The notes under the pieces: model-generated
What the model saw: the letters and a program-made list of their open reading frames with translations, nothing else
The model's database searches: none
What the model was told of the DNA's origin: nothing
Shown here: one piece after another, positions 6,139 to 62,003 of the stretch
Layout of the letters: every line of letters begins with the position of its first letter
Position numbering within the stretch: position 1 is the stretch's first letter
Origin: Filomicrobium insigne
Lineage (GTDB): Bacteria > Pseudomonadota > Alphaproteobacteria > Rhizobiales > Hyphomicrobiaceae
Assembly: GCF_900104305.1 (NCBI RefSeq)
Contig: NZ_FNJC01000002.1
Span: 744,001 to 808,000 of the forward strand
DNA: 64,000 nt
Direction of reading: 5' to 3'
Translations under genes and position numbers: made by a program

Positions 6139-6173
6139 CGCCAGCGGGACTTGGAGCGAGGCTAGAAATAATT

Positions 6174-46590: not shown

Positions 46591-47556
46591 ATGTCCCGAG
46601 ATCGTAATAAGCCTGAAAATGCCGGGGAAACGCTTGCATGCAACCGTCGGAAGTTTGTCATCGGAGCCGGCGCCGTCACCACACTCGCAGCCACAGGGTT
46701 TCCCTTCCCAACCGCAGCCGCGGAAACAATCAAGTTCGGCGAGTTCGAGATCCTGCCACTGAGCGACGGCCACCTGATGCTACCCGCACGCCTTTTCGCC
46801 CCGAATGCTGAGGAAAGCGCACGCGCCGCAGCCTTCGCCGCTGCGGGCCACAAAGGGGATCAAATCCGCCGCCCACTAAACGTAACTCTTATTCGCAACG
46901 GCGATGAGCAGATCCTGGTCGACGTTGGCTCGGGACCACGCTTCATGGCCACAGCCGGCAAGCTTATCGACGATGTCGATGCGAACGGCATCGACCGCGA
47001 AGCCATAACAACCGTTGTCTTCACGCACGCGCATCCCGACCACATTTGGGGAACCACGGATGACTTTGACGAACTCGTCTTTCCAAACGCGCGCTATCTG
47101 ATTTCCGAGGAAGAGTACAATTACTGGATGGCCGACGACATCCTGTCCAAATTGCCCGAAGATCGTCAAGGGTTTGCAACCGGCGCGCAACGCAACATCG
47201 ATGCGGTCAAGGACAAGCTGGAAACCTTTAAACCGGGGGCAGATGTCGTCACCGGTGTAACCACTCTGGAAACCGGCGGCCACACGCCCGGCCACATCTC
47301 ACTTGAAATCAGCCAAGGCAACGAGTCCTTCATCGTGCTCGGCGATGCGCTCACCCACCATATCGTCTCGTTCCAACATCCAGACTGGATTTCAGGAAAC
47401 GATCACGAGCCGGAACGGGCAATCAAAACTCGTCAGAAGCTATTGGACAAAATGGCCAACGAAAAAACGCGTCTTATCGGATACCACTTGCCCGATCCCG
47501 GCGTCGGTCGCGTGGAACGCGACGGAACCGCGTACAAATATGTAAGCGAAAGCTGA
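46591..47556 (+). CDS. Tat-exported metallo-beta-lactamase-fold hydrolase
   Basis: The 321-residue protein has a twin-arginine signal (CNRRKFVIGAGAVTTLAA, about 21-38) and an MBL domain. Metal ligands are visible in VVFTHAHPDHIWG (about 142-154), TGGHTPGHISLEI (His near 231) and LGDALTHHIVS. Distant members include SoxH and quorum-quenching lactonases, so a sulfur role is possible because of location but unproven. The periplasmic location is from the signal. Confidence 0.9.
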   Translation: MSRDRNKPENAGETLACNRRKFVIGAGAVTTLAATGFPFPTAAAETIKFGEFEILPLSDGHLMLPARLFAPNAEESARAAAFAAAGHKGDQIRRPLNVTLIRNGDEQILVDVGSGPRFMATAGKLIDDVDANGIDREAITTVVFTHAHPDHIWGTTDDFDELVFPNARYLISEEEYNYWMADDILSKLPEDRQGFATGAQRNIDAVKDKLETFKPGADVVTGVTTLETGGHTPGHISLEISQGNESFIVLGDALTHHIVSFQHPDWISGNDHEPERAIKTRQKLLDKMANEKTRLIGYHLPDPGVGRVERDGTAYKYVSES

Positions 47557-47589: not shown

Positions 47590-48720
47590 CTAGAACACAC
47601 AACCTCGCGCCGTAACTGGCCAGATCTCTTGAACTGTGCCATCGCCCTCGGCCATCCCACGCACACCGATAAAAAAGTCGTGCTGGTTGGCCGTTGGATC
47701 GACATGACTGGGCACGATCAGAATTTTCTCACCTAGGTCAGGAAGGGCCGAGTCCAGTTCCGCAACCAGGCAACCGTGCTCGTCTGAAGGCCGCTCATAG
47801 CGAACACCCGGACGATCAAACGGGACCGGCATACCCGAGTCGATAGGCAGCACTTTATGCCCGGCATCCACCACAGCCTGACCAACGCTGGTACGGCTCA
47901 TGACGATCGCCCAAACAAACATGGCGTGCTCAAATTTGGGAACATCGCCACCCGCCGGGGTATTGCGAGCATAGTCGGCATCCATAAAAGCGTAGGACCC
48001 CGGTTGCAGCTCATTCCACACGCCGCTCATACCGTCGAATGCGAAGGAACCCGTTCCGGCGCCCCCGACAGTTTCGCACTCAAGCCCAATATCGCGAAGC
48101 GCCGCAATGGTCTGCGCGGTAACATCACCCGCACGCGCCGCACGCGCCTTGCGTTCATCCGGATCGCGGACATGCTGCGTAATTCCGTCATAAGACTGTA
48201 AGCCCGCAAAACGCAGGCCATCCGCCTGCGCAACAGCTGCACCCAGCCGAACTGCAGGGTCGCCCGGCTCAACACCGCAACGGTTCCCGCCGATATTGAT
48301 TTCAACAAGCACATCTATTGTTGCGCCAGCAGCATGCATCGCCTCAGACAAATCTCTGATTTGCCGGATATCGTCGACACACACACCCATACGCGCTCGT
48401 AGCGCCAATTGCGCCAGCGCCTCTAGTTTCGTGCGCCCGACGACCTCGTTGCTGATCAGCACATTAGTTATGCCAGCATCCACCATCACCTCGGCTTCCG
48501 AGACCTTCTGGCAGCAGACACCGACGGCTCCGAGCGCCATTTGTCGATGCGCGATCGCGGGGCATTTGTGAGATTTTGCATGTGGGCGCAATCGCACGTT
48601 CTTGCTTTTGGCCCAATCCGCCATCGTCTGGAGATTGCGCTCAAACGCATCGAGATCGAGGATCAAAGCAGGGGTATCGACGTCTGCAAGCGGAATACCA
48701 AGCCGTGCTGGTGCGCGCAT
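47590..48720 (-). CDS. PLP-dependent 3-hydroxyaspartate / D-threonine aldolase-like enzyme
   Basis: This 376-residue alanine-racemase-fold enzyme has DVDTPALILDLDAFERNL at its start. The PLP lysine lies in RPHAKSHK (45-52), with VGVCCQKVSEAEVM (about 67-80). The C-terminal metal site is SDEHG and VPSHVDPTANQHD. The same landmarks occur in D-threonine aldolase, D-3-hydroxyaspartate aldolase and BhcC of the beta-hydroxyaspartate cycle, which join or split glycine and glyoxylate; a DSD1-type D-serine dehydratase is the alternative. It is the last gene of the seven-gene operon, 75 bases after the HbpS-like gene. Confidence 0.88.
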   Translation of the reverse strand: MRAPARLGIPLADVDTPALILDLDAFERNLQTMADWAKSKNVRLRPHAKSHKCPAIAHRQMALGAVGVCCQKVSEAEVMVDAGITNVLISNEVVGRTKLEALAQLALRARMGVCVDDIRQIRDLSEAMHAAGATIDVLVEINIGGNRCGVEPGDPAVRLGAAVAQADGLRFAGLQSYDGITQHVRDPDERKARAARAGDVTAQTIAALRDIGLECETVGGAGTGSFAFDGMSGVWNELQPGSYAFMDADYARNTPAGGDVPKFEHAMFVWAIVMSRTSVGQAVVDAGHKVLPIDSGMPVPFDRPGVRYERPSDEHGCLVAELDSALPDLGEKILIVPSHVDPTANQHDFFIGVRGMAEGDGTVQEIWPVTARGCVF

Positions 48721-48795
48721 TTTCCAACGCTCTCTCTATGCTCGGCAATAGACAGCGGGCCGAGTCAACGTGTGACAGGACTAACTTTTCGAAAA

Positions 48796-49230
48796 TCAGT
48801 AAATGCGTGCGACGAAACCTGCCGCTTCTATGCCGGCCACAGCACAGGTCTCATCATTGTCGGATGTATCACCTGTAATGCCGACTGCACCAATGATTTC
48901 ACCGTCACTTGTCGTGATAAGCACACCACCAGGCACAGGAACCAGAGAGCCCCCAGCAAGTGCATTGACCGACTGAACGAAGAAAGGTTGTTTCTCCGCG
49001 CGCTCGAAGATCGCCCGCGAACCGATACCCAGATGAATAGCACCACGGGCTTTTCCTTGCGCCATCTCGGGTCGGAGCGTGCTCGTTCCATCTTGACGCG
49101 CCAGCGCCTTTAGGTGACCTCCTGCATCGAGCACCGCAACGGTGAGCGGCTTGAGCCCCAACTCCGCCGCCTTCTCCAATGCAACCGTGATGATACGATT
49201 GGACCTTTCAAGCGTCAGCGCCAAACTCAT
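48796..49230 (-). CDS. HbpS/GlcG-like (DUF336) protein
   Basis: This 144-residue protein is a complete HbpS-like domain: LTVAVLDAGGHLKALARQDG (about 29-48), PEMAQGKARGAIHLGIGSRA and VPVPGGVLITTSDGEIIGAV, then TGDTSDNDETCAVAGIEAAG. Members occur in glycolate (GlcG), propanediol and aromatic gene clusters and some bind heme; the exact role is unsettled. Its ATG overlaps the CoA-transferase stop by four bases. Confidence 0.9.
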   Translation of the reverse strand: MSLALTLERSNRIITVALEKAAELGLKPLTVAVLDAGGHLKALARQDGTSTLRPEMAQGKARGAIHLGIGSRAIFERAEKQPFFVQSVNALAGGSLVPVPGGVLITTSDGEIIGAVGITGDTSDNDETCAVAGIEAAGFVARIY

Positions 49231-50435
49231 GCGAGACTTTCCTCCTGGCGTGCCGCTCCGGCTCTAATCATGTCTTCGACTTCCGCTTGTGAATAGCCCG
49301 CTTCTAGCAAAACTTCACGCGTGTGCTGACCAAGGACGGGGGCAGCACGCTGCACACCGCCCGGCGTCTCCGAAAACTTTACCGGCAATCCGAGTGTGCG
49401 CACGGCACCAACTACCGGATGCGCAACCTCCGGCACCATATCTCGCGCCAGGGTTTGCGGATCGTTGTGCATTTCATCGATGCTCAGAACGGGCCCAGCA
49501 GGAATACCGGATGTTTCGAGAGCCTCGAGCCACTCAGCTGTCGAACGCGTCCTGAGAATGACGCTCAAGACGTATTCTAGAGCCTCCCGGTTGACGATGC
49601 GCTCAGCATTGGAAGCAAAACGCGGATCATCATTAAGCTCCGGCGCACCAAGAACATGCACCAGCCGTTCCCAGTTCGTCTGATTGGCTGCCCCAATATT
49701 GATCCAACCATCCGCGGTTTCGAAAGCCTGATAGGGCGCATTCATCGGGTGAGCTGAGCCCATCGGCCCCGGTGAGGAGCCCGTCGCGAACGTTATGGCC
49801 GACTGCCAGTAGGTCTGCGTAATGGCCGCCTCGAACAGCGATGTATCAACCTTCTGCCCTTCTCCCGTCTTAAGTTTGTGCGAATAAGCAGCAGCGATGC
49901 CCATCGCGAGCAGAATGCCCGCCGTGATGTCCGACACGGGCGCTCCGACCTTCACCGGCGGCCGCCCCGCGCCCTCGCCGGTAATCGACATCAAGCCACT
50001 CATGCCTTGGGCAATGAGATCAAAGCCTCCGCGATGGGCGTAGGGGCCGGTGCGTCCAAAGCCCGAGATTTCAGCGTAGATGAGACCCGGATTGAGCTTA
50101 CGCAGCTCCTCGTATCCCAGCCCAAGTTTCTCCATCGTTCCCAATCGATAGTTTTCGATGACAACGTCGGCATCACGCAAAAGTCGCCGCAGGACCTCAA
50201 GACCCTGTGCAGATTTGAGATCGAGAACGATGCCCCGCTTGTTGCGATTCATCATCATGAAAGCGGCGCTCTCGCCATTGATTGTCGGAGGCACAAAGCG
50301 ACGGGTATCGTCACCCTGAGCCTTCTCGACCTTGACGACGTCCGCTCCCATGTCGGCCAGCATCAATCCGGCAACAGGCCCCGCCATAATGTGAGCCAAC
50401 TCGATAACTCGACACCCCTGCAGCGGTCCTGACAT
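49227..50435 (-). CDS. Class III (CaiB/BaiF) CoA-transferase
   Basis: The 402-residue enzyme starts GCRVIELAHIMAGPVAGLML. The catalytic Asp of the class is at position 169 (GAPVSDITAGILLA), exactly where it is in FRC and CaiB. RGIVLDLKSAQGLEVLRRLL and DVVIENYRLGTMEKLGLGYE are typical. It would move CoA between a dicarboxylic or hydroxy acid and a donor in the cytoplasm; acids such as oxalate, malate, itaconate or carnitine are possible and sequence does not decide. It belongs to the operon between the TRAP genes and the HbpS-like gene. Confidence 0.92.
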   Translation of the reverse strand: MSGPLQGCRVIELAHIMAGPVAGLMLADMGADVVKVEKAQGDDTRRFVPPTINGESAAFMMMNRNKRGIVLDLKSAQGLEVLRRLLRDADVVIENYRLGTMEKLGLGYEELRKLNPGLIYAEISGFGRTGPYAHRGGFDLIAQGMSGLMSITGEGAGRPPVKVGAPVSDITAGILLAMGIAAAYSHKLKTGEGQKVDTSLFEAAITQTYWQSAITFATGSSPGPMGSAHPMNAPYQAFETADGWINIGAANQTNWERLVHVLGAPELNDDPRFASNAERIVNREALEYVLSVILRTRSTAEWLEALETSGIPAGPVLSIDEMHNDPQTLARDMVPEVAHPVVGAVRTLGLPVKFSETPGGVQRAAPVLGQHTREVLLEAGYSQAEVEDMIRAGAARQEESLA

Positions 50436-50483
50436 GTCTCACTCGCCTCCTGTGGTTATTGTCTTTGCGAGCACGTTGCAGTG

Positions 50484-51764
50484 TTAGCGGTAGAGATATT
50501 CAACCAAGAACATCGGAACAGCTGGCACATAGGTGCATAGAAGAAGAACCGCCAACAGCACGGCCACGAACGGGAGGTTGACCTTCGAGACTTCCCATAT
50601 ATTAGCCCGAGCCACGGCACACGCAGTTATGAGCACGCTTGCTACCGGTGGCGTTTGCTGTCCGATTGCCAAATTGAGCGTCACAACCAGCCCAAAGTGC
50701 ACCGGATCGATACCTGCTGCGTGTATGAGCGGAATCACGATCGGGATGACCAGAATGATCGCTGCGGCCGAGTGAAGGAAGAAGCCGATAATCAGGAAGA
50801 AAACGTTCATGATCAGCAGGATCAGATACTGGTTGGTCGTCATATCCAGTATCGCGGCCGCAATCTCCTGAGGGACCCGAGCCCGGGTCAGGAAGCCACC
50901 CATCAAAACCGAAGCTGCAACCAGCAGCATAACGATCGCCGTCTGCATACCGCCATCAAGCATCGCACGCTTCAGATGCTTGAAATCCATCTCGCGATAC
51001 CAAAGCCCCACGAGGAGCGCAGCGATCACGGCAAGTCCGGCCGCCTCAGTAGCTGTGACGAAGCCGCCGAAGATGCCACCCAGAATGATAACGGGCAACG
51101 AAAAGGCAGGAAGCGCGTCGATAAAGGTTTTGCGCAATCGCGGCATATTAAACGCTTCTTCGACCGGCAAATTGTACCGAAGCGCGAACATGTAGGCGAC
51201 GAACATCAACCCCGCAGCGCCAAGCAGCCCCGGCACGAAACCCGCAACGAATAGCTGTTCAACAGATGTGTTGGCGGACGTCGCGTAAAGGATCATCGGA
51301 ATCGACGGCGGAATGATAATGGCCAGCGAAGCCGAAGACGATGTAACCGCCGCCGCAAGCGGAGCTGAATAACCTCGCTTCTTCATTTGCGGAATGAGAA
51401 CGGAACCGAGCGCGGCCACGTCCGCAACGGCCGATCCCGAAATTTCCGCAAAGAACAGGGACACGCCGATGTTGACCATCGCCAAGCCACCGCGCACGAA
51501 ACCAATCAACGCAGTCACGAAGTTAATGAGACGGTCAGTAACACCGCCCGCGTTCATAATGGCACCAGCCAGAACAAACATCGGAATGGCAATCAGCGAA
51601 AACTTCGTTGAGCCGTCGTACATATCGAGAGCGACGGTGGGAAGACTGCTGACGCCTTCGGTCGCCAAAAGACCGATAATGCCCCCGACAGCGAGTGCGA
51701 CCGCAATCGGCACGTTGATGAAGATCAACGCAACAAGCGCGATGAAAATTGCAAGAATAAGCAT
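50484..51764 (-). CDS. dctM: TRAP transporter large permease DctM
   Basis: The 426-residue protein has about twelve helices, with DctM hallmarks LFFAEISGSAVADVAALGSV (about 103-122), IIPPSIPMILYA and LGAAGLMFVAYMFALRYNLP. TRAP transporters import organic acids with sodium, using a periplasmic binding protein. Its start is three bases after the dctQ stop. Confidence 0.95.
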   Translation of the reverse strand: MLILAIFIALVALIFINVPIAVALAVGGIIGLLATEGVSSLPTVALDMYDGSTKFSLIAIPMFVLAGAIMNAGGVTDRLINFVTALIGFVRGGLAMVNIGVSLFFAEISGSAVADVAALGSVLIPQMKKRGYSAPLAAAVTSSSASLAIIIPPSIPMILYATSANTSVEQLFVAGFVPGLLGAAGLMFVAYMFALRYNLPVEEAFNMPRLRKTFIDALPAFSLPVIILGGIFGGFVTATEAAGLAVIAALLVGLWYREMDFKHLKRAMLDGGMQTAIVMLLVAASVLMGGFLTRARVPQEIAAAILDMTTNQYLILLIMNVFFLIIGFFLHSAAAIILVIPIVIPLIHAAGIDPVHFGLVVTLNLAIGQQTPPVASVLITACAVARANIWEVSKVNLPFVAVLLAVLLLCTYVPAVPMFLVEYLYR

Positions 51765-51766
51765 GC

Positions 51767-52309
51767 CTATCGCGCCTTCGCTTTCTCGAGCTCAGATTTG
51801 ACGTCTTCTTCGATCTCTTCGTGCTCCAGCGACTTACCTGCCGCGGTCAAGCCCCAGTATTCAGGCAGGCTAAGAAGCTCGCAGATGATGAACAGCACTG
51901 CACCAACGGGAATGATCGACTGCGTGAATTGAACAGGCATCCAAGTCAGGGAGATAAGGGTTTCACCCTCCAAAACCTGAAGAACCTGCATGCCTGTGAG
52001 AGCAAGGATTGCAAAGAAGCCAACGACCGTGACTTCTGCCACCAACAAAGCCACCATCCGCAACGGCATGGGGATCAAAAGCAACACGGTATCGAAACCG
52101 ATATGCCTCCGTTTCAGCGCAGCGAGGGCCGCACCGTAATAGGTAATCCATGCGAGTAGGATTGCTGCGATCTCGTCGTACCAGGACAATGAGTCGCCAA
52201 CGATACGGAATGAAACGCCGACGATAACGACGACGGTCAAGGACACCATCAAAAGGATGGTCGCCCATTCCAAGACGAGTTCAAGGCCTCGTCGTACAGC
52301 ACTGATCAT
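51767..52309 (-). CDS. dctQ: TRAP transporter small permease DctQ
   Basis: This 180-residue, four-helix protein starts MISAVRRGLELVLEWATILL. The family motif SWYDEIAAILLAWITYYGAALA lies at about 40-60 with KRRHIGFDTVLLLIP. The C-terminus is an acidic/basic tail (HEEIEEDVKSELEKAKAR). The frame is open further upstream, but ATG 52309 matches family length. The gap to dctP holds a strong hairpin. Confidence 0.92.
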   Translation of the reverse strand: MISAVRRGLELVLEWATILLMVSLTVVVIVGVSFRIVGDSLSWYDEIAAILLAWITYYGAALAALKRRHIGFDTVLLLIPMPLRMVALLVAEVTVVGFFAILALTGMQVLQVLEGETLISLTWMPVQFTQSIIPVGAVLFIICELLSLPEYWGLTAAGKSLEHEEIEEDVKSELEKAKAR

Positions 52310-52410
52310 AGTGGAATGCTCTTCTCGCGATAATCGTGGAAGATGTGCCGCACGTACCGTTGAGCGTCCGGCGAACGAGACAAAGGCGCTCCTGGAAGGA
52401 ACAGTTTCGG

Positions 52411-52436
52411 ATTGGGCACGCGGCAGCGTGCCCAAT
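52411..52436 (-). promoter_or_regulatory. Intercistronic hairpin between dctP and dctQ
   Basis: ATTGGGCACGC and GCGTGCCCAAT pair perfectly over 11 bp around GGCA, starting 21 bases after the dctP stop. No T run follows, so it should not terminate fully; it may protect the dctP message from 3' exonucleases and set binding protein above permease levels. Confidence 0.7.
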
Positions 52437-52456
52437 CTCAGAAACTTCGCGCGAGT

Positions 52457-53440
52457 TTACGAACCGTCCGCCAAAGACTGCACGGTCTCAACCAGCTTCC
52501 TCGCACCATCGAAGCTTTCGGCGTATTCGTCATAGATCGGCTTAGAAGCCTCTACGAATGCGGCGTTGTCCGCTTCGTTCACTTCCACTCCAGCGTCCTT
52601 AATGACCTTCAGAAGCTCAACTTCAAGCTCTGCCGCCTTCTTGTAGACGAAGTCCTGGGTTTCAGCACCGCACTTTACGAGTGCGTCCTGAACATCTTGC
52701 GGCAACTTGCCGAAGTGATTGTCGGACACCAGAACATACCCTGGTGTGTAAACGTGGTTGGTGATCGTCAGGTACTTCTGAACTTCCTGGAATTTCGCGG
52801 ACGCGATCTGCGCATAGGGATTTTCCTGTCCGTCAATGACGTTCGTCTGCAAGGCCGTAAAGACCTCTGAGAATGCCATCGGCGTCGGGTTTGCGCCGTA
52901 GAGCTTGAACATCTTCAACCGCCAAACACCCTTAGGCGTACGCAGCTTGATACCGGACAGATCTGCCGGCACCTTGATCGGACGGACGTTGTTCGTGATG
53001 TGGCGGAAGCCATTTTCGAACAAGCCGATGATACGATAGCCCTTCGCCTTAACCGCAGGTTGGAAGGTGCTCTCCATCAATGCCTTCTGCACCCGCCGCA
53101 TGTGATCGCGGCTTTTAATGATGTAGGGCATCTCGAACACGCCAAACTCATTGGCAACGGACGACATGACCGACGAAGGTAGAGCGAAAGTTACTTGGCC
53201 AAGCTTCAACTTCTGAAGCAGCTCACTGTCCTTGCCGAGCTGAGAAGATCCGAAGGTCTGAACTTCAGCCTTATCACCAAGAGCTTTGTTCGAGCATGCA
53301 GCAAAGGCATTGGCACTCGCCTCAAACAACGAACCGGGTTCACCGACGTGACCGAATTTGAGCACAAGCTTGTCCGCCATTGCTGGAGTGGCGAACAGGA
53401 CAGCGGCCGCGGACGCAGCCAACAGCGTCATTCGTTTCAT
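52457..53440 (-). CDS. dctP: TRAP transporter substrate-binding protein DctP
   Basis: The 327-residue periplasmic protein has a signal peptide (MKRMTLLAASAAAVLFATPA, cleavage near AMA-D). The DctP fold is seen in LVLKFGHVGEPGSLFEASAN, LSGIKLRTPKGVWRLKMFKL (with the conserved Arg that holds the carboxylate) and TNVIDGQENPYAQIASAKFQ. It binds a carboxylate, and the neighbourhood points to a C2-C5 hydroxy or amino acid (inference). Confidence 0.94.
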   Translation of the reverse strand: MKRMTLLAASAAAVLFATPAMADKLVLKFGHVGEPGSLFEASANAFAACSNKALGDKAEVQTFGSSQLGKDSELLQKLKLGQVTFALPSSVMSSVANEFGVFEMPYIIKSRDHMRRVQKALMESTFQPAVKAKGYRIIGLFENGFRHITNNVRPIKVPADLSGIKLRTPKGVWRLKMFKLYGANPTPMAFSEVFTALQTNVIDGQENPYAQIASAKFQEVQKYLTITNHVYTPGYVLVSDNHFGKLPQDVQDALVKCGAETQDFVYKKAAELEVELLKVIKDAGVEVNEADNAAFVEASKPIYDEYAESFDGARKLVETVQSLADGS

Positions 53441-53491
53441 TTGGGTTCCTCCTCCCGAAGGTTTTTATCAGTTGCTTTTAATTATTGATTC

Positions 53492-54688
53492 TTATTGGGC
53501 CGCGGCGATCGCCTCGGTCGGTCGTTCTGAGTTGGTAAGATAGTCCATTGCCGCTTGCGCGCCACCCCGATTGTGAGGAACGCTCGCAAGTTTCAGTCCC
53601 ATCTCGACACCAGACAGCGTTGCCATCAGCATCAAGTCGTTAAAATGGCCAAGATGGCCTATACGAAAGACACGGTCGGAAACCTTTGATAATCCACTCC
53701 CGAGTGACATGTCGAAATTGTCGAGCGTTGTCTTACGGAACGCGTCAGCGCTGCTCCCTGTGGGCATCACGACTGTCGTCAGCACGTTGGAGTAATGTCT
53801 TGGGTCGCTGCAGAGGATGTCGAGCCCCCAGGTCCGCACCGCCTGCCGCGTAGCCTCGCCGTGCCGGGCATGTCGCGCAAATACGGCGTCCAAACCTTCC
53901 TCATGCAGCATATCGATCGCAACATTGAGGCCATAGAGAAGGTTCGTTGCCGGCGTATATGGAAAATACCCCTTCTCGTTCGGGCCTTTCATTTCATCCC
54001 AAGCCCAATAAGACTTCGGCAGCGTTGCCTTGGCACTTGCCGCGCGCGCCTTCGCGCTGATCGCATTGAACGAAAGGCCCGGCGGAAGCATCAAGCCCTT
54101 CTGGGATCCGGAAACCGCAACGTCGACGCCCCACGCATCAAACTGAAAATCAATCGACGCGAGTCCCGAGATGCTGTCGACCATCAGCAAAGCCGGATGC
54201 CCCGCAGAATCTATGGCATCTCTGACCTCTTTGACCTGCGTAACCGAACCGGTCGATGTCTCGTTGTGGACGACACAGACAGCCTTGATTTCGTGGTTCT
54301 TGTCTGCCCGCAGATACGCTTCGATTTTCTCCGGATCAGCACCGCTGCGCCAATCGCTGGGAATGAATTCCGGCTGGAGTCCAAGCCGCTTTGCGAGCGC
54401 CTGCCACAGGGTCGCGAAGTGTCCGGTCTCATACATCAGCACGCGATCACCAGCTGACAAAGTATTAACCAGAGCGGCTTCCCACGCCCCCGTCCCGGAG
54501 GACGGGAAAATCACGACATCCTGCTCGGTCTTGAAGATGGACTTCATTCCCTCAAGAGCCTTTTTGCCGATGTCGGCAAAATCCGGCCCGCGGTGGTCCA
54601 TTGTCGGGAAATCCATCGCGCGAAGGACACGATCAGGTACATTCGAAGGTCCAGGAATTTGGAGGAAATGCCGGCCCGATTTGTACAT
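53492..54688 (-). CDS. Class V aminotransferase, serine/alanine-glyoxylate type
   Basis: This 398-residue PLP enzyme starts MYKSGRHFLQIPGPSNVPDR and has the alanine/serine-glyoxylate aminotransferase pattern DFPTMDHRGPDFADIGKKAL. VIFPSSGTGAWEAALVNTL follows, and the PLP lysine is in VDVAVSGSQKGLMLPPGL (about 190). Amino donor may be serine, alanine or aspartate; the product is glycine from glyoxylate. It differs at the start from canonical serine-cycle SgaA, so the donor is uncertain. ATG 54688 has GGAGGAT seven bases ahead. It is the first gene of the operon; the promoter shares 126 bases with the divergent dehydrogenase gene. Confidence 0.92.
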   Translation of the reverse strand: MYKSGRHFLQIPGPSNVPDRVLRAMDFPTMDHRGPDFADIGKKALEGMKSIFKTEQDVVIFPSSGTGAWEAALVNTLSAGDRVLMYETGHFATLWQALAKRLGLQPEFIPSDWRSGADPEKIEAYLRADKNHEIKAVCVVHNETSTGSVTQVKEVRDAIDSAGHPALLMVDSISGLASIDFQFDAWGVDVAVSGSQKGLMLPPGLSFNAISAKARAASAKATLPKSYWAWDEMKGPNEKGYFPYTPATNLLYGLNVAIDMLHEEGLDAVFARHARHGEATRQAVRTWGLDILCSDPRHYSNVLTTVVMPTGSSADAFRKTTLDNFDMSLGSGLSKVSDRVFRIGHLGHFNDLMLMATLSGVEMGLKLASVPHNRGGAQAAMDYLTNSERPTEAIAAAQ

Positions 54689-54770
54689 TTGTATATCCTC
54701 CGCTCCCGTCACCTCTGCACCTGAAGGAAATTCTTACCCCCAGATCACTTGGCGAATTTTTTATTTCGCA

Positions 54771-54784
54771 TTTTGAATACAAAA
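54771..54784. promoter_or_regulatory. FadR/GntR-type operator in the divergent promoter
   Basis: TTTTGAATACAAAA is a TTTTG-N4-CAAAA palindrome matching the TTGTATACAA type used by FCD-subfamily GntR regulators. It lies between the aminotransferase operon and the dehydrogenase-gntR unit, so one site can control both. Confidence 0.65.
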
Positions 54785-54814
54785 ATTGAACGGCGAGCCA
54801 TTGTCAACTATGCA

Positions 54815-57799
54815 ATGTCTTCGCCCCCACAAACAGCAGCAAAGCCGGTGGCCATGTCGAGAACGCATCAACCCGATACTGAAGGCCTTGAACGGCAGCT
54901 GAGCCGGGCGATAGAGGGCGAGATCCTATTCGACAAGTTTAGCCGCGGCCGATACGCGACCGACGCATCGATCTACCAGATGATGCCGCTTGGGGTCGTC
55001 ATCCCCCGTACGATTGCCGACGTTGAAGCGACATTGGCGATTGCACGAGAAGCCGGTGTACCGGTCCTTCCCCGTGGCGGCGGCACCTCCCAAAGCGGTC
55101 AGACGGTCAATGAAGCAATCGTCATCGATCTTTCGAAACACCTGAACAAGTTGATCGAAGTCGATCCCGAAGCACGCACAGCCGTCGTCGAACCCGGGCT
55201 CGTTCTCGATACACTCAACGATCACCTGAAGCCGCATGGCCTCTGGTATCCCGTCGATGTCTCGACATCCTCACGCTGCACACTCGGCGGCATGACCGCA
55301 AATAATTCATGTGGCGCGCGATCCATCCGTTACGGAACGTCACGCGACAACGTTTTGGCAATTGATGCCATCCTGGCCAACGGCCGTCGCGCCCGCTTCG
55401 CTCAGGTCGAAACAAACCTGCAAGGTCTCAACGAAGCCGACCCCAACCGCGAGCTTTTCCGCGATTTGTTGGCCCTTGGCTCGCGCGAAGCCGAAGAAAT
55501 TCGTCTCCGCTTTCCTGACATTATTCGCCGCGTCGGTGGCTATAACGTCGATTCTCTCCTTCCCAACGCGAAGGGCAATAACCTCGCGCACCTGCTCGTC
55601 GGGTCGGAAGGCACGCTCGCCCTTAGCGAACGTATTACGTTGAAATTGTCGCCCATCCTGAGCTCGAAGGTTCTGGGTGTCTGCCATTTCCCGACGTTTT
55701 ACGAGGCAATGGACGCGACCCAGCACCTGGTCAAACTCGATCCGACTGCCGTCGAGTTGGTGGACAGCAATATGATCGAGCTTGGCCGCAAGATCGCGAT
55801 GTTCAAGCCAATCGTTGATGCCTTCGTGCGCGGAGAGCCCGCCGCGCTGCTCATCGTGGAGTTTGCGGAGCCGGATCAGAACGAGAACCTCAAACGCCTG
55901 GACGCCTTGGAAGATCTGATGGCGGATCTTGGCTTCCGTTGGGGTGATCCCGGCAAGAAGGACGGCGGTGTTGTCCGGGCTATCGACCCCGAGTTCCAAA
56001 AGCAAATTATTGAGGTCCGCAAGCAGGGCCTCAACATCATGATGTCGATGAAGAGCGAAGGAAAACCCGTCTCCTTCGTCGAAGACTGCGCTGTCGAACT
56101 CAAAGACCTAGCCGAGTATACCGACCGCCTCACCGGCATCTTCCGCAAACACGACACGGACGGAACCTGGTATGCCCACGCGTCCGTGGGCACCCTTCAC
56201 GTCCGCCCGGTCCTGAACCTCAAGTTGGACACCGGCGTCAAACAAATGCGCGCCATCGCCGAGGAAGCATTCGAGCTTGTCCGCAACTATCGCGGCTCCC
56301 ACTCCGGCGAGCACGGTGACGGGATCGTTCGCTCTGAGTTTCACCGCACCATGTTCGGCGAACGCATGGTTGAGAACTTCAATTGGGTAAAGGATCGGAT
56401 GGACCCTGACGGGCTTCTCAACCCCGGAAAAATCGTCCGTCCACCGCGCATGGATGATCGCAATCTTCTACGCTACGCTCCCGAATACAACGTCCCGGAG
56501 ATACAATCCGCATTCACTTGGTCCGGCCACTACGGATCGGGTCGCGGTTTTCAGGGCGCGGTGGAGATGTGCAATAACAATGGCGCCTGTCGCAAACTCA
56601 AAGACGGTGTCATGTGTCCGTCCTATCGCGTAACGCGCAACGAACGCGATCTCGTGCGCGGACGCGCCAATTCCCTCCGCTTGGCCATATCCGGCCAACT
56701 TGGTCCGAACGCACTCACCAGCGACGCCATGGCAGAAACCATGAAGCTGTGCGTCTCCTGCAAGGCCTGCCGCCGTGAATGCCCAACGGGCGTTGACATG
56801 GCCAAGATGAAAATCGACGTGTCCGCTGCAAGAGCAAAGCGGCATGGCCTTTCCCTCCGCGACCGCATGGTCGCGTATCTGCCGCACTATGCGCAGAAAG
56901 CATCTCGCGCAGCAGGCCTGTTGAACTTGCGCGATCGTATCCCTGGTGCCGCCTGGATCTCTGAGCGAGTTGTGGGCATGAGCGCCGCCCGACCCTTACC
57001 GCAATGGCGCACGGACGTATTTGAGCCGGACGAATATGAAACCTCGCCGGCCGACGCGGATGTTCTGCTCTTCGCGGACACCTTCAACCGATACTTCGAG
57101 CCCGACAATCTTCGCGCCGCCGAAGCCGTCCTGAAACGTGCCGGGTTTCAAGTTGCGCACGCGACCCCGCTCACAGGCTCACGCCCGCTGTGCTGCGGGC
57201 GGACGTTCCTATCGGCAGGCCTCACGGACCAAGCAGCAGAGGAAATGCGACGTACGATCGAAGTCATCAAACCCATCCTTGAACGGGGAGGCTACGTCGT
57301 AGGCCTCGAACCGTCTTGCCTACTCACATTCCGCGACGAAGCCCCAGCACTTTTGGGCGCAGAGTGGAATGAGGAACTAGGAGCACGGGTCTTGCTGTTT
57401 GAGGAATTCATCGCGCGCAAGCACGCCGAGGGGTCTTTCGAACTGAAACTCTCCTCCTTGCCGGTGTCGCGTGCCCTTCTCCATGGCCACTGCCACCAAA
57501 AAGCATTCAACGTGGTATCACCGGTTCAGCAAACGCTTAAGCTTATCCCCGATCTCGAAGTTGAACTAATTCAAACGTCCTGCTGCGGCATGGCTGGGGC
57601 CTTCGGATATCAAGCCGAAACCTACGAGATTTCGCGCGCAATGGGCGAATTGAGTTTGATGCCGCGCATTCGCGAAGCACCAACAGACGCCATAGTCGTG
57701 GCAGATGGCACCTCATGTCGTCATCAGATTGTCGATATGACGGGCCGTGAAGCTGTCCACGTCGCGCAAGTCCTATATTCTGCCTCCAATAACGTTTGA
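54815..57799 (+). CDS. D-2-hydroxyacid dehydrogenase: FAD oxidase fused to Fe-S/CCG module (YdiJ-like)
   Basis: This protein of about 994 residues (1,016 if the longest frame is used) has three parts. A PCMH-type FAD domain (about 60-290) contains PRGGGTSQSGQTVN and CTLGGMTANNSCGARSIRYG. A GlcD-type FAD oxidase C-terminal domain (about 290-560) contains GEHGDGIVRSEFHRTMFGER. The Fe-S part has CNNNGACRKLKDGVMCPSYR (about 588-607), CVSCKACRRECPTGVDMAKM (about 648-667) and two CCG-domain motifs (LCCGRTFLSA and TSCCGMAGAFGY). The layout is that of YdiJ/D-2-hydroxyglutarate dehydrogenase, oxidising a D-2-hydroxyacid and passing electrons toward quinone. Length matches YdiJ. ATG 54815 has no clear ribosome-binding site; ATG 54854 is an alternative. 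The substrate here may be glycolate, D-lactate or a C4-C5 acid. Confidence 0.92.
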   Translation: MSSPPQTAAKPVAMSRTHQPDTEGLERQLSRAIEGEILFDKFSRGRYATDASIYQMMPLGVVIPRTIADVEATLAIAREAGVPVLPRGGGTSQSGQTVNEAIVIDLSKHLNKLIEVDPEARTAVVEPGLVLDTLNDHLKPHGLWYPVDVSTSSRCTLGGMTANNSCGARSIRYGTSRDNVLAIDAILANGRRARFAQVETNLQGLNEADPNRELFRDLLALGSREAEEIRLRFPDIIRRVGGYNVDSLLPNAKGNNLAHLLVGSEGTLALSERITLKLSPILSSKVLGVCHFPTFYEAMDATQHLVKLDPTAVELVDSNMIELGRKIAMFKPIVDAFVRGEPAALLIVEFAEPDQNENLKRLDALEDLMADLGFRWGDPGKKDGGVVRAIDPEFQKQIIEVRKQGLNIMMSMKSEGKPVSFVEDCAVELKDLAEYTDRLTGIFRKHDTDGTWYAHASVGTLHVRPVLNLKLDTGVKQMRAIAEEAFELVRNYRGSHSGEHGDGIVRSEFHRTMFGERMVENFNWVKDRMDPDGLLNPGKIVRPPRMDDRNLLRYAPEYNVPEIQSAFTWSGHYGSGRGFQGAVEMCNNNGACRKLKDGVMCPSYRVTRNERDLVRGRANSLRLAISGQLGPNALTSDAMAETMKLCVSCKACRRECPTGVDMAKMKIDVSAARAKRHGLSLRDRMVAYLPHYAQKASRAAGLLNLRDRIPGAAWISERVVGMSAARPLPQWRTDVFEPDEYETSPADADVLLFADTFNRYFEPDNLRAAEAVLKRAGFQVAHATPLTGSRPLCCGRTFLSAGLTDQAAEEMRRTIEVIKPILERGGYVVGLEPSCLLTFRDEAPALLGAEWNEELGARVLLFEEFIARKHAEGSFELKLSSLPVSRALLHGHCHQKAFNVVSPVQQTLKLIPDLEVELIQTSCCGMAGAFGYQAETYEISRAMGELSLMPRIREAPTDAIVVADGTSCRHQIVDMTGREAVHVAQVLYSASNNV

Positions 57800-57812
57800 A
57801 GGAAGAAGGTTC

Positions 57813-58487
57813 ATGAGTACGGTTCTCGGTGCTCCCATTGAACGGCGCCCGCTTCACGAGGAGCTGGCTGACCAGCTGCGCCGTCTGATCATCGAAGGGG
57901 ATCTGCGACCGGGAGAGAAGATCTCCGAAAAGCTTCTCTGCGACCAGTTCGCCGTATCGCGCACGCCGCTGCGCGAAGCGTTGAAAATTCTTATGACCGA
58001 AGGCCTGGTTCTCCTGACTCCCAATCGGGGAGCCTCAGTCACCGAACTCACCATCGACGACCTCGAAGAACTATTTCCCATTATTGGCGCATTGGAAGCT
58101 CTTTCCGGCGAGCTGGCCTGCCAGAGCATCACAGACGAGGAAATTGAATCTGCTCGCGACCTGCAAGCAGAAATGGTTGAATGCTACAAGAGGGGCGATC
58201 TACATCGCTATTTCGAAGTCAATGAAGCGGTTCACAGTCTCATTGTGCGTGCGTCTCGAAATACAACGTTGGCTCAGATGATGCGGAATGCATCTGGACG
58301 CATACGTCGCGCACGCTACATGGCAAATCTGTCGAAGGACCGTTGGACCGCAGCCGTCGCAGAGCATGAAGCAATTCTCTCCGCTCTAAGCAAACGTGAC
58401 GCCTCACGCCTCGGCCCCCTGCTCAAGACTCACATCGCAAATAAGTTTGCCGCATTACGCGAAGCGCTGCTCCGGGATCAACAGTAG
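57813..58487 (+). CDS. FadR-subfamily GntR regulator (FCD domain)
   Basis: The 224-residue regulator has a GntR winged helix (about 10-75: LHEELADQLRRLIIEGDLRP, then FAVSRTPLREALKILMTEGL). An FCD ligand domain follows with LFPIIGALEALSGELACQSI, HRYFEVNEAVHSLIVRASRN and a C-terminal HEAILSALSKRDASRLGPLL containing metal-site His residues. It starts 13 bases after the dehydrogenase stop, with GGAAGAAGG before it, and probably binds the box at 54771-54784; the effector is likely the pathway acid. Confidence 0.95.
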   Translation: MSTVLGAPIERRPLHEELADQLRRLIIEGDLRPGEKISEKLLCDQFAVSRTPLREALKILMTEGLVLLTPNRGASVTELTIDDLEELFPIIGALEALSGELACQSITDEEIESARDLQAEMVECYKRGDLHRYFEVNEAVHSLIVRASRNTTLAQMMRNASGRIRRARYMANLSKDRWTAAVAEHEAILSALSKRDASRLGPLLKTHIANKFAALREALLRDQQ

Positions 58488-58531: not shown

Positions 58532-58864
58532 TTACTTGTTATCTTTCAGGGAACTGAAATAAACAGCCAACGCCTCGATCTGTTGATTATCCAGCGTTGA
58601 CGCAACCGAAACCATGATTGGGTTGGCGCGGAGCCCGGTCCGGTACAGTTGCAGGGCTTTGACAAATTCCTCCCTGGACAAATCAACGATCGCAGGAACA
58701 CCCACGTCTTTTCCGTCCAGCCGATGGCAGGTCAAACACTCCTGAGAAAGCTGATGCCCGTACCGTTTGAGATCCGCCTCACTCAAGCCATCGACGGCGA
58801 GGACGCCGAACGGCAGAAAAGCCGCGAACGCGACCAAACCAACTATGAAGCAAGAGCGGATCAT
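58532..58864 (-). CDS. Small exported cytochrome c (FccA/SoxE-like position)
   Basis: This 110-residue protein has a signal peptide (to about residue 24, FLPFGVLAV) and one heme motif CLTCH at 43-47. An axial Met is in ANPIMVSVASTLDNQQIEAL (about 83). It is the third gene of a minus-strand run after the sulfide-dehydrogenase flavoprotein. It may be the cytochrome partner, though single-heme and short compared with diheme FccA. It acts in the periplasm as electron acceptor (inference from position). Confidence 0.85.
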   Translation of the reverse strand: MIRSCFIVGLVAFAAFLPFGVLAVDGLSEADLKRYGHQLSQECLTCHRLDGKDVGVPAIVDLSREEFVKALQLYRTGLRANPIMVSVASTLDNQQIEALAVYFSSLKDNK

Positions 58865-58894
58865 TGATCACCCATTTCCGCAGTCTAACACCGA

Positions 58895-60676
58895 TTAATA
58901 CAGCCAGATCTCAACACGCCGATTAAGCTCCGCCCCGCCCGGGTTTACTTCGCATGCGATCGGAAACATAGGCCCTAAAGCCAATATCTTCTCTGCCTTA
59001 ATACCATGTTGCGACAAGAGAGACTGGATGCTCCGGGCTCGCGCGCTTGAAACCGCGATATTCTGATCGAGAGTTCCAATCGCATCCGAAAATCCAACCA
59101 CAGCAATCCGGCGTTTTTCCCCATCCCGGTCATCGAGAAAAGTCTTCAACCCATCGACCTTCTTCTCGGAACCGTCCATCGGCGTGACGCTACCGCTTGC
59201 AAAACCGAAGACCGTTGAGACACGCTCAATAGCATCTTGCTTGTTCGCCGCGTTTGTTGCGCTAGTCCCGGCACCAACCTCAGTATTAATGCTCAAACCG
59301 GGACTGCGTACCGCAACGACGCGGTCGTTAGGCAGCCCACGGCTCTTGAGAAAGCTTTGCGTCAGGTCGGCTTTTAAAAAATTCCGAAACTCTTTCGTCT
59401 GCGAGTTTGCGTCGGGCAGGCTATAAACAGCATACGTGTCCGATAACGGATAAGAGTGAAGCTTCAAGGTGAACTCATCGGGAGCGCGCGCCGTCCCGCA
59501 CTGATCGACGATCTTCAACGCCTTCGTATTACCCACGCTCGCAGCTTCCGTAAGACCTATCGCCGTTGGATCGGTGCTGACGATTTCCGCCAATTCCGAC
59601 AGCGTATCCACCTGATACGCAGACAGCATCAAGTCGCCGCCCTTCAAAACGGTGCGTTTGGCTATGCTCTTGAGCCCGGAATGCTGAGCCAATGAGTGCA
59701 CGCGAATACGCCGATGTTGACCTCCCAGTTGTGACCAGTCGGTAATCTTCCCGCTGAAAATTCCAGAGACCTGATCGTACGAGAGCTTTTCAATGGGATT
59801 ATCGGCATTGACGATTACGACTGCGCCTGACGGTCCCAAGCGCGTCAACTCTATCGCAATTTTTGCGGGGGCCGCTTCCTGCGAACCAACAGCAGCAGGC
59901 CGTGAACGGATCACGCCCTCAGGAACCTTTGCAGCGACCGCGGCCAGCTCTTCTGTCGTTAGCTCCGCTGGAAGAACCGCAATATCGGAATTGCCAGCCA
60001 ACACAGCTGCCACGGCTGAAATCGGATCATCGGCCTGTAGCTCGATACGCAGACCTTCTCGTTCCCCCGAGAATCCGACGTTATAAATACGCGAGCCATC
60101 CGCTTGACGTGGAGACCACTTCCCAGTCTGACCGCTCGCCTTAGCGTAAAACTGCAAGATCTCCGGCACGACGCGCTCCACTCCCTCCGCAGTCGCCCGA
60201 ATTCGCAGTGTCCCGCTGAGTTTCGCAACGCTTGGCTCGGCAATCTTGGGTTCGGAAGCTTCCTGCCAGGCTAACGCGATCTTCGTAACTTCGCTGACAG
60301 GAACCTGAACGGTCCCTGTCGCCGTGGCCACGGTGTAATATCCGTCTTGGAATTGAACGATCTGTCCCGCTACCGGCTGACCGGAACTCTTCTCCAAAGT
60401 AAATGCCGGAACGACATTATCCCCACTCGGACGATCGCCAGTTCTTGCTGCGGTGAGTTCGACGAGACTAAGCCCAGAGACGTCCTCAACTTTGATCCGC
60501 TTTAAGGTCTCGCCGACCTGAAAGTCGTAATATCCATCGTGGAAATCGACGATATCGCCGACCACTTCCACGCCTGATGTCAGCGTGGCACGGAACGATC
60601 CTGCATGGGCGGACAGCGCGGACAAGCCGAGCAAAAGGCACGCAGCGATACTTGCAGGTATCCGGAAAGGCATCAT
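58895..60676 (-). CDS. PstS-like substrate-binding/OmpA fusion with N-terminal duplicated motif
   Basis: The exported protein is 593 residues. A signal peptide (1-25) is followed by a tandem repeat: SGVEVVGDIVDFHDGYYDFQ at about 34-53 and SGQPVAGQIVQFQDGYYTVA at about 98-117, each running into a KV/PVS-V-L strand. A PBP-type domain (about 145-440) contains AVVIVNADNPIEKLSYDQVS and IFSGKITDWSQLGG, as in phosphate-binding PstS-like proteins. The C-terminal OmpA domain (about 485-593) contains GFSDAIGTLDQNIAVSSARA and ends NRRVEIWLY. PstS-OmpA fusions exist, but lying between a flavocytochrome-like flavoprotein and a cytochrome c is unusual. Start is ATG 60676 or 60673 with AAGGG eight bases before. 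Confidence 0.88.
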   Translation of the reverse strand: MMPFRIPASIAACLLLGLSALSAHAGSFRATLTSGVEVVGDIVDFHDGYYDFQVGETLKRIKVEDVSGLSLVELTAARTGDRPSGDNVVPAFTLEKSSGQPVAGQIVQFQDGYYTVATATGTVQVPVSEVTKIALAWQEASEPKIAEPSVAKLSGTLRIRATAEGVERVVPEILQFYAKASGQTGKWSPRQADGSRIYNVGFSGEREGLRIELQADDPISAVAAVLAGNSDIAVLPAELTTEELAAVAAKVPEGVIRSRPAAVGSQEAAPAKIAIELTRLGPSGAVVIVNADNPIEKLSYDQVSGIFSGKITDWSQLGGQHRRIRVHSLAQHSGLKSIAKRTVLKGGDLMLSAYQVDTLSELAEIVSTDPTAIGLTEAASVGNTKALKIVDQCGTARAPDEFTLKLHSYPLSDTYAVYSLPDANSQTKEFRNFLKADLTQSFLKSRGLPNDRVVAVRSPGLSINTEVGAGTSATNAANKQDAIERVSTVFGFASGSVTPMDGSEKKVDGLKTFLDDRDGEKRRIAVVGFSDAIGTLDQNIAVSSARARSIQSLLSQHGIKAEKILALGPMFPIACEVNPGGAELNRRVEIWLY

Positions 60677-60704
60677 GACAAACCCTTGCAAAAGCCTCGT
60701 GCGA

Positions 60705-62003
60705 TCAGCTCGCCGCGAACATGTCGATCGTGATGGCCGAATACCAGCCCTCGGACTCCTTGAAGTTCCGCGCCCGCACGCTGGCCGGCTCCGCCGGTTC
60801 TGATACGAACGGCCCCGCAGCCACCAAGCCGGGAGCGCCGGCGAGCTCACCAACAGAATAACTCGCTCCAACCTTGACGCTGTCGTTTTGTGCCAACAGA
60901 GACCAGCAGGTATTACGCAGGCGCGAAGGCAGAGGTTTCAACCCGTTGAGTTCCGCCACCAGTGTGTTGGCGACGTACTTTGCTTGGCTATTGGCGGAAA
61001 ATGCTGACTTCGGCATCTGTGCGGCGTTTGAAGAATCGCCGATCACATAGACGTCCTTGACCTTGGTGGATGCAAAGCTTTCTGGAGACACAGGGCACCA
61101 CCGCCCCTCGACACAACCGGCACGCCAGGCAATTCCGCCCGCGCGTTGCGGCGGGATAACATTGCCGACGTCGGCCTTGAACTGCTGTCCGGACTTCACT
61201 GTCATGGTCTTGGTCCGAGGATCGACCTTCACGACCTCAAAACTGTCGATCTGATCGGTCAGATTGACCTCGATCATGCCCTTGTAGTGGGTCTCAAAAG
61301 CCTCTTGGAAAACGGGTTGCTTTGCAAAACTCGTCTTCGCGTCCAACAGCACGATTTTAGAGCGAGGTTTGTTGGTCTTGAGGTAATGCGCAATCATGCA
61401 GATGCGCTCATAGGGGCCCGGCGGACACCGATAAGGATTGGCTGGCGCTGCTATCACAACAACCCCGCCATCCTCCATCGCTTCGAGCTGTGATTTCAGC
61501 AGCCGTGTTTGATCCCCACCACGCCACGCATGCGGCATCACCTGCGTCGCCTCAGCGTCGTACCCTTCGATTGCTTCCAGATCGATATCTATGCCTGGAG
61601 AAAGAACCAACTTGTCATAAGAGACGCGTGTGCCGCCCATCATCGTCACGACGCGTGCGCTGGTATCCACGTCCACGGCAACATCCTGGATAAGATTGAT
61701 ACCGATGCTGCGGAGTTGGTCGTAGGAATGCGTAAGAGACTCGAGCGTGCGGAAACCGCCATAATAAAGATTGGAATAAAAGCAGCTCGTATAGGTCGGA
61801 CTGCGCTCAACGAGAGTCACGTTAGCATTGGGAGCACCAACCTTAACGTACTTCGCAAGAGTTGCCCCACCCGCGCCTCCGCCAACGACAACGATCCGTG
61901 CAGCACCCTGAGCGTAAGCCGGACTGGGAAACGAGCTGAAAGCGGGTGACACCGCGAGAGCACCAAGCCCCTGCACCAGCCTTCTTCGGCTCAATTGCGT
62001 CAT
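60705..62003 (-). CDS. Flavocytochrome-c-type sulfide dehydrogenase flavoprotein (FccB/SoxF-like)
   Basis: The 432-residue protein has Tat signal LSRRRLVQGLGALAVSPA and FAD-binding Rossmann motif IVVVGGGAGGATLAKYV (about 37-53). The active-site Cys are in TYTSCFYSNLYYGGF (about 75) and NTCWSLLAQND near the C-terminus. GDSSNAAQMPKSAFSANSQA is the FAD-ribityl stretch. Such proteins oxidise sulfide to sulfur or polysulfide in the periplasm and pass electrons to a cytochrome c. ATG 62003 has GAGAGG nine bases ahead; an ATG three codons earlier is too close to it. The binding-protein/OmpA gene follows after 28 bases. Confidence 0.92.
   Translation of the reverse strand: MTQLSRRRLVQGLGALAVSPAFSSFPSPAYAQGAARIVVVGGGAGGATLAKYVKVGAPNANVTLVERSPTYTSCFYSNLYYGGFRTLESLTHSYDQLRSIGINLIQDVAVDVDTSARVVTMMGGTRVSYDKLVLSPGIDIDLEAIEGYDAEATQVMPHAWRGGDQTRLLKSQLEAMEDGGVVVIAAPANPYRCPPGPYERICMIAHYLKTNKPRSKIVLLDAKTSFAKQPVFQEAFETHYKGMIEVNLTDQIDSFEVVKVDPRTKTMTVKSGQQFKADVGNVIPPQRAGGIAWRAGCVEGRWCPVSPESFASTKVKDVYVIGDSSNAAQMPKSAFSANSQAKYVANTLVAELNGLKPLPSRLRNTCWSLLAQNDSVKVGASYSVGELAGAPGLVAAGPFVSEPAEPASVRARNFKESEGWYSAITIDMFAAS

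Follow-up and report, generated by a model that had tools for sequence, protein, structure and literature searches.

Which compound is taken up, and what is made of it, by a locus that joins a tripartite ATP-independent periplasmic (TRAP) importer to a D-2-hydroxy-acid dehydrogenase, an aminotransferase, and an aldolase is the question raised by a 64,000-nucleotide stretch of Filomicrobium insigne DNA (contig NZ_FNJC01000002.1; G000:C9:744001-808000), referred to here as the window. The source genome (G000) is 3.85 Mb in size and rated 100% complete. Seven minus-strand genes, encoding a class V aminotransferase (AT5), the TRAP proteins DctP, DctQ, and DctM, a class III CoA-transferase (CaiB), an HbpS/GlcG-like protein, and a D-threonine aldolase (DTA) family enzyme, face plus-strand genes for a YdiJ-like dehydrogenase and an FCD-type GntR regulator. 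This arrangement had been described in the initial annotation of the window and is confirmed by the open reading frames (ORFs) and Pfam matches. That annotation took the nine genes for one uncharacterized catabolic route; the conserved unit is instead the importer, YdiJ, AT5, and the FCD regulator with an exchangeable tail. We consider it plausible, somewhat short of probable, that the locus is one version of a widespread unit for the import and oxidation of a polar D-2-hydroxy acid and for aminotransfer involving glyoxylate and glycine, with an exchangeable glycine-linked tail.

Conserved Backbone and Exchangeable Tail

Within the genus, YdiJ (E ≤ 1e-200) is found in seven of nine genomes including G000; it is missing from G004 and from G007, which is 67% complete. 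The congeners' backbone, FCD and YdiJ divergent from (AT5 and) DctPQM, stays 63-88% identical to the window while the tails vary, as expected of an exchangeable tail. The tail is CaiB-HbpS-DTA in the window, CaiB in G001, G003, and G005, enoyl-CoA hydratase (ECH) and CaiB in G008, where YdiJ lies on a separate contig, and the beta-hydroxyaspartate (BHA) cycle pair BhcB-BhcC in G002 and G006, whose CaiB genes are located elsewhere. Six of the eight other congeners have no aldolase-family match at E ≤ 0.001, and the remaining two, G002 and G006, have BhcC instead of the DTA type, and a single conserved route made up of all nine genes is not supported. In another genus, G030 has an ECH-CaiB tail plus a 35% identical aldolase-family protein, and in G025 and G027 YdiJ is followed by aldolase-family proteins.

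At E ≤ 1e-240, YdiJ orthologs were found for the order in 90 of 397 genomes and for the class in 69 of 385; at E ≤ 1e-200, the family has them in 33 of 102. Sixty YdiJ loci were fetched from the order and family lists. AT5 (at least 55% identity) is divergent from YdiJ in 53 of them and FCD (at least 40% identity) is present in 47; DctM is found in 17, ECH in 16, HbpS in 13, CaiB in 11, and DTA in 2. The AT5/YdiJ arrangement is more than chance, and confinement of the co-occurrence to this strain, named by the annotation as fatal to its proposal, is contradicted. Four of the seven loci lacking AT5 stop at a contig edge where it would be expected (L121, L135, L145, L156); the others are a locus with a true BhcA (L133; 683.6 bits, cut-off 650), the second YdiJ copy of genome G207 (L157), and a locus with 1.5 kb of room and no AT5 (L160). 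At class level, AT5 is present in 16 of 20 loci and absent from L275, L277, L284, and L287. Conservation of gene order, which the annotation had proposed to examine, thus holds for the divergent pair and extends to eight of the nine genes, with ECH and without the aldolase, in L119, L131, and L272; among the loci examined, the full nine are present only in the window.

The conserved core spans many alphaproteobacterial families, Burkholderiales, and three 1.2-Mb genomes of 32% G+C. Each locus of these small genomes carries YdiJ, AT5, DctPQM, and relatives of ECH (34-37% identical) and CaiB (54-58%), with no FCD match. In one of them (L270, 11308-12462), a gene of the mandelate-racemase/muconate-lactonizing family lies between YdiJ and AT5, and its product may racemize or dehydrate the hydroxy-acid substrate. 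The unit is also present on a plasmid record of Limimaricola, and a Caballeronia plasmid has the order AT5-'2-keto-4-pentenoate hydratase'-YdiJ-MFS-(ECH)-CaiB-DSD1.

The importer genes follow AT5 on the minus strand: DctP (52457-53440; PF03480, TIGR00787 above cut-off) after 51 bases, DctQ, the small permease (51767-52309, in an ORF reaching 52435; PF04290), after 147 bases as measured from the 52309 start, and DctM, the large permease (50484-51764; PF06808, TIGR00786 above cut-off), after 2 bases. All three subunits are therefore present by Pfam and TIGR models. The transporters vary around the same enzymes (TRAP, Tct, MFS, BASS), which supports the proposed unit: a TctA cluster is found in up to 13 loci, Tct being confirmed by Pfam in L120, an MFS carrier occurs in three loci (that of L080 scores 236.6 bits to a galactonate-type model, cut-off 395), and in Acidiphilium a BASS transporter stands beside AT5 in a stretch where YdiJ is not annotated. 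The DctP proteins of 24 module loci are at least 58% identical in all pairs, and these loci include ones with and without an aldolase. Because the same DctP serves both, the imported ligand is unlikely to be the aldolase substrate. This bears on the route first proposed for the window, in which a 3-hydroxy amino acid (3-hydroxyaspartate or D-threonine, for example) enters through the importer and is then cleaved by the aldolase to glycine and an aldehyde. The aldolase does lie within the operon, with intact catalytic residues and an identical protein deposited as a D-threonine aldolase, but the same TRAP set lacks an aldolase in L110, L112, L118, L126, L128, L144, and others, and the constant partner is YdiJ, a hydroxy-acid dehydrogenase; we regard the route as very unlikely.

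The CaiB gene (49227-50435, minus strand; PF02515) begins 48 bases after DctM and overlaps by 4 bases the gene for the HbpS/GlcG-like protein (48796-49230, minus strand; PF03928), which is separated from the aldolase gene by 75 bases. The CoA_transf_3 domain and Asp169, presumably the catalytic residue as in formyl-CoA transferase, place CaiB among class III CoA-transferases. It falls below every NCBIfam cut-off listed, the top match being 364 bits to a model with a cut-off of 750. The roles of CaiB and HbpS are putative. An acyl-CoA branch formed by ECH and CaiB could itself be the core, with the CoA-transferase activating a substrate that is an unsaturated acid or a 3-hydroxy acid, and its frequency among the 60 loci, the retention of both genes in the three 1.2-Mb genomes, and the position of CaiB relatives beside a 3-hydroxyisobutyryl-CoA hydrolase-type cluster in seven loci (one member scored 420 bits, cut-off 274) point that way. 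Many loci are without both genes, however, the window has no ECH, and CaiB lies outside the unit in G002 and G006, which leaves this explanation distinctly unlikely. Two further genes were seen near the tail in other loci: between DctM and HbpS in L111 (14483-15550), one whose match to a ketopantoate-reductase domain is weak (PF02558, 24.5 bits, cut-off 22.2), and after CaiB in L096 (3095-4174), one that resembles the L111 gene by eye and matches no family.

A palindrome, TGnATTnnnAATnCA, is common to the AT5/YdiJ divergent gaps. Scored over 12 positions against TGAATTNNNAATTCA, a consensus derived from 48 gaps, the best site differs at no more than two positions in 35 of these same 48, as compared to 0.26 in mononucleotide shuffles. 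The probable starts of AT5 and YdiJ leave such a gap between the two arms of the window, and an operator-like palindrome, CGCATTTTGAATACA, lies in it at 54767-54781. It is the single match to TGNATTNNNAATNCA (at most 1 mismatch) in the 64 kb; on the 12-position scale it has 3 mismatches. Since 1.6 sites per window are expected by chance, the weight lies in the position of the site and not in the count. Six loci outside the derivation set, chosen by us (L064, L080, L133, L170, L171, L172), all have, in the expected gap, a site that departs from the 10-base pattern at one position at most, and L172 has three further such sites elsewhere. Outside the order, a site with at most 2 mismatches is present in 2 of 20 class-level loci. 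We infer that the FCD regulator (plus-strand ORF 57747-58487, probable start 57813; PF07729, PF00392) binds this palindrome.

The Dehydrogenase and Its Likely Substrate

The YdiJ-like protein (plus-strand ORF 54749-57799, ATG at 54815 or 54854; PF01565, PF02913, Fer4, CCG) is a fused FAD/4Fe-4S D-2-hydroxy-acid dehydrogenase. Numbered from the 54854 start, it keeps R389, H442, H449, E486, and H487, the catalytic set by which D-2-hydroxy-acid dehydrogenases (VAO/PCMH) bind the 2-hydroxy-carboxylate group. Its fused FAD and Fe-S architecture and catalytic residues are shared with the YdiJ D-2-hydroxyglutarate dehydrogenase, although its score against that equivalog model (NF049975) is 507.6 bits with a cut-off of 1350. 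None of AT5, the aldolase, CaiB, and YdiJ passes an equivalog cut-off in the curated library, and the four are therefore treated as relatives of the named families only.

The substrate pocket was compared with residue roles taken from PMC7801405 and PMC10589216. At the second subsite, the window YdiJ has Tyr440 and Arg451, where the GlcD of G000 has Ile/Leu and mouse LDHD has Val/Ile; the small apolar subsite of GlcD is thus not found in YdiJ. The positions of human D2HGDH Thr390, Lys401, Tyr432, and Asn443, mapped via mouse LDHD with only the FAD domain of D2HGDH in the listed stretch, are Leu, Val/Ile, Tyr, and Arg in module YdiJ proteins (Leu, Val, and Arg replacing Thr390, Lys401, and Asn443 in the window), Phe, Cys, Ile, and Leu in G000 GlcD, and Trp, Ser, Val, and Ile in mouse LDHD. 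The Arg is present in 78 of 79 alignment rows, of which 11 repeat loci already in alignment A2, and the remaining row has a gap. A cationic, polar second subsite suits glycolate or lactate less well than a substrate bearing another polar group.

G000 also has a separate glcD-E-F-like run beside lutB (GlcD 465 bits, cut-off 568; GlcE 263, cut-off 284; GlcF 413, cut-off 333; LutB 466, cut-off 445). All 18 genomes tested contain GlcE-like matches (247-294 bits), five of which exceed the cut-off of 284. These data bear on a glycolate-importing variant of the BHA cycle, in which glycolate enters through the TRAP system and is oxidized by YdiJ acting as a glycolate dehydrogenase, AT5 produces glycine, and the aldolase joins glycine to glyoxylate. 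The GlcG-like HbpS protein, GlcG being presumably a partner linked to GlcDEF, and the association of the unit with BhcB-BhcC and bhcABCD would fit this variant, as would the matches of YdiJ to the models for glcD (205 bits) and GlcF (45 bits), neither of which comes near its cut-off. The GlcD and GlcE of the separate run miss their own cut-offs, so that the run could encode a lactate-type enzyme. Against glycolate as the ligand stand the Tyr/Arg of YdiJ where G000 GlcD is apolar, the existence of the separate run and of GlcE-like matches in all genomes tested, and the lack of BhcB and BhcD above cut-off. The variant is thus unlikely, as is YdiJ being the sole glycolate oxidase of the cell, and the glycolate-type oxidation suggested in the initial annotation is unlikely for YdiJ. 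The GlcDEF glycolate oxidase with GlcR (PMC11323563) resembles the locus in having a FadR-family regulator adjoining a D-2-hydroxy-acid oxidase and a GlcG-like partner; the locus differs in its single fused subunit, its pocket, and its divergent aminotransferase.

Three specific substrates were dropped. Conversion of tartrate via AT5 to 3-hydroxyaspartate lacked evidence and was set aside because class V aminotransferases yield L-amino acids and BhcC and DTA require the D-form. Pantoate had as its sole hint the ligand that we take 4nq8, the top DctP match (200.8 bits), to carry. For sulfolactate, the only hints were the sox genes around the window module and the sauS/xsc genes beside L080. In that locus (1921-7322, genome G025), YdiJ-HbpS-aldolase lies near xsc (956.7 bits, cut-off 676.4) and sauS (782.7 bits, cut-off 600), a sulfoacetate-type operon.

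The Aldolase and the Glyoxylate/Glycine Link

The last gene of the window operon (47590-48720, minus strand; Ala_racemase_N/D-ser_dehydrat) encodes a predicted metal- and pyridoxal phosphate (PLP)-dependent enzyme whose 376 residues are all the same (100% identity) in PDB 7dib_A, an entry named 'D-threonine aldolase'. The term uncharacterized therefore does not apply to every part of the locus. The source organism of 7dib is presumably Filomicrobium marinum; a literature search found no paper on a Filomicrobium D-threonine aldolase. The residues K49, R147, Y177, H183, H339, and D341 mapped in AxDTA (4v15) are retained, and the identity to a deposited DTA together with the conserved PLP lysine, histidine base, and His/Asp metal site places the protein in the DTA family, for which cleavage of D-threonine to glycine and acetaldehyde is the defining reaction. 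According to PMC4401734, K49 is the PLP lysine, H183 the base, and H339/D341 the metal site, and the physiological function of DTAs is there called largely unknown. Relative to 7dib and AxDTA, the genomic context here suggests a glyoxylate/glycine role for the window aldolase.

The BHA cycle of Paracoccus denitrificans (BhcABCD with glycolate oxidase) and the locus have in common a BhcA-group aminotransferase, an aldolase of the BhcC/DTA superfamily, glyoxylate/glycine as the likely common currency, and a FadR-family regulator near an enzyme oxidizing 2-hydroxy acids. The window unit differs in having a fused YdiJ-like dehydrogenase in place of GlcDEF, and a CoA-transferase and a TRAP importer in the operon. 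AT5 (BhcA/AGXT group; minus-strand ORF 53492-54712, probable start 54688; Aminotran_5) contains Lys197, which we take to be the PLP lysine, within an SGSQK motif, and scores 450 bits against the BhcA model (cut-off 650). The aldolase reaches 426 bits against BhcC (cut-off 690) and lies outside the BhcC clade. The top BhcB match in G000 has 236.1 bits (cut-off 550) and no BhcD match was found there at E ≤ 0.001; among 13 genomes, BhcB is above cut-off in G002 (598.4 bits) and G006 (587.4 bits) only and BhcD in none. The BhcC proteins of G002 and G006 (644.8 and 640.8 bits) are also below the cut-off of 690, yet fall inside the BhcC clade. A full BHA cycle is hence ruled out for G000, which extends to the whole genome the absence of BhcB and BhcD reported at the locus and upholds its separation from the complete cycle. 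Searches of G000, which did not extend to malate synthase A, gave no match to malate synthase G and no above-cut-off glyoxylate carboligase.

The link of the unit to glyoxylate and glycine is supported by neighboring genes. It rests on BhcB-BhcC in the operon of G002 and G006, BhcA in L133, a serine hydroxymethyltransferase (SHMT)-like gene at the aldolase's tail position in L167 (176.6 bits, cut-off 335), and the 84-kb Tateyamaria omphalii plasmid pDOK1-4-1 (L171, 1790-15493), on which a GntR/YdiJ/AT5/TRAP/heme-binding unit adjoins a complete bhcDCBA cluster. The view of the locus as a catabolic unit linked to glyoxylate, with a dedicated TRAP importer and FCD regulator, is in accord with these neighbors. 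A relative of AT5, 62.7% identical, was also seen on plasmid pAM01 of Aminobacter sp. MSH1 (L174) in a purine-degradation-like context of PuuD, deacetylase, RidA, amidase, FAH-family, and heme-binding genes, with no YdiJ-like gene annotated within the stretch.

In a tree of 34 proteins, the aldolase-family members embedded in such loci form separate groups: the BhcC clade (100/100), L064-L079-L080 (100/100; a long-branched group whose placement is not firm), L134-L139 (100/100), and Caballeronia DSD1 with AxDTA (99/95). The window DTA lies in an unresolved group with same-family DTAs that lack module neighbors. The L134-L139 and Caballeronia/AxDTA groups are possibly one lineage (the 92/75 join is not firm), and four lineages remain; by this tree, aldolase-family genes appear to have entered YdiJ/AT5 loci in at least four lineages. 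BhcC, DTA, DSD1-like, and SHMT-like enzymes have glycine in common as a substrate or product. We regard as doubtful the broader claim that the AT5/YdiJ/importer unit is a widespread polar D-2-hydroxy-acid route via glyoxylate and glycine, undescribed as judged by literature searches alone, to which lineages independently added a glycine aldolase (BhcC, DTA, DSD1-like, or SHMT-like).

The aldolase could instead be a bystander: a housekeeping DTA that the 3' end has picked up and that takes no part in the pathway. Its absence from six of the eight other congeners would agree with this, as would two facts about its relatives: the closest (54-57% identical) have no other module gene in the fetched stretches, and 74 of 80 aldolase-family loci are without AT5 (at 55% identity) and YdiJ (at 48%) within the stretch covered, the 80 being the best of at least 590 matches to a Caballeronia-led alignment, a sample that leans to that clade and includes several short contigs. 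Of the other loci, the remaining six carry AT5 or YdiJ, which rules out that all DTAs belong to this unit, and four more sit in bhcABCD. The 75-base spacing within the operon argues against a bystander, and so does the fact that at least four lineages of the locus have recruited this family. The same holds for the eight aldolase-family genes near YdiJ, as compared to 0.22 (69 loci) to 0.37 (114 genomes, an approximate tally of those with YdiJ, for which the order and family lists combined give 117) expected under a Poisson model that treats loci as independent and assumes a background of 40 aldolase-family matches in 59 genomes and 20 kb in 4.2 Mb. The aldolase itself led to five of the eight loci in the first place; the 60 YdiJ-fetched loci alone give two (P = 0.017), both from one family. 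On balance, a bystander is possible, if rather unlikely.

In the proposed unit, the ligand taken up by the TRAP importer would be a small D-2-hydroxy acid of polar character; the most likely candidate is a C3-C4 hydroxy-dicarboxylate or an anion similar to it, in preference to glycolate, and we infer both this substrate and the direction of flux. YdiJ would convert the hydroxy acid to a 2-oxo acid and pass electrons via the Fe-S domain to the quinone pool, and AT5 would shuttle amino groups between the 2-oxo acid (or aspartate/serine) and glyoxylate/glycine. Acting at the palindrome between the divergent genes, the FCD regulator would govern both arms. The exchangeable 3' tail would serve either glycine/glyoxylate handling (BhcB-BhcC, DTA-like, SHMT-like) or an acyl-CoA branch (ECH-CaiB). 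In the window, where the tail is CaiB-HbpS-DTA, the aldolase may act on a pathway intermediate (glycine and glyoxylate or another aldehyde) and not on the imported ligand; its cleaving the imported ligand, as first annotated, is unlikely. Several observations weigh against this proposal. The locus has no AT5 in G003, G005, G030, G025, and G027, and the relatives of the aldolase mostly stand apart from the unit, as described above. With no BhcB in G000, the fate of 3-hydroxyaspartate would be left unexplained. For 18 of the 20 class-level loci, the best palindrome carries at least 3 mismatches, a background level, and the pocket argument comes from a distant alignment without a structure, its D2HGDH positions being indirect.

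Genomic Surroundings and Biological Meaning

Sulfur-oxidation genes flank the module in the window (39815-44856 and 58532-62012). On one side, SoxB (859 bits, cut-off 550), SoxZ, SoxY, and SoxC are above NCBIfam cut-offs; on the other are a small cytochrome c (PF00034) and a flavoprotein weakly resembling sulfide:quinone reductase (98.8 bits, cut-off 525). A metallo-beta-lactamase-fold hydrolase (46591-47556) with a Tat-like leader by eye and 156.6 bits to an AidB-type lactonase (cut-off 360) is convergent with the aldolase gene, 33 bases separating the two ORFs. Scans for sigma-70 promoters (3 found, 4.6 expected) and terminators (16 found, 12.8 expected) were at or near background, and the phage search gave a single distant match.

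Because the core spans alphaproteobacterial families, Burkholderiales, and 1.2-Mb genomes, its ligand may be a common environmental hydroxy acid. If the broader claim were true, the physiological role of DTAs in hosts without BhcB and BhcD would be that of glycine/glyoxylate aldolases resembling BhcC. Here a DTA of solved structure belongs to an operon whose counterparts in two congeners have BhcB-BhcC as the tail, and the question of DTA function thereby becomes experimentally defined.

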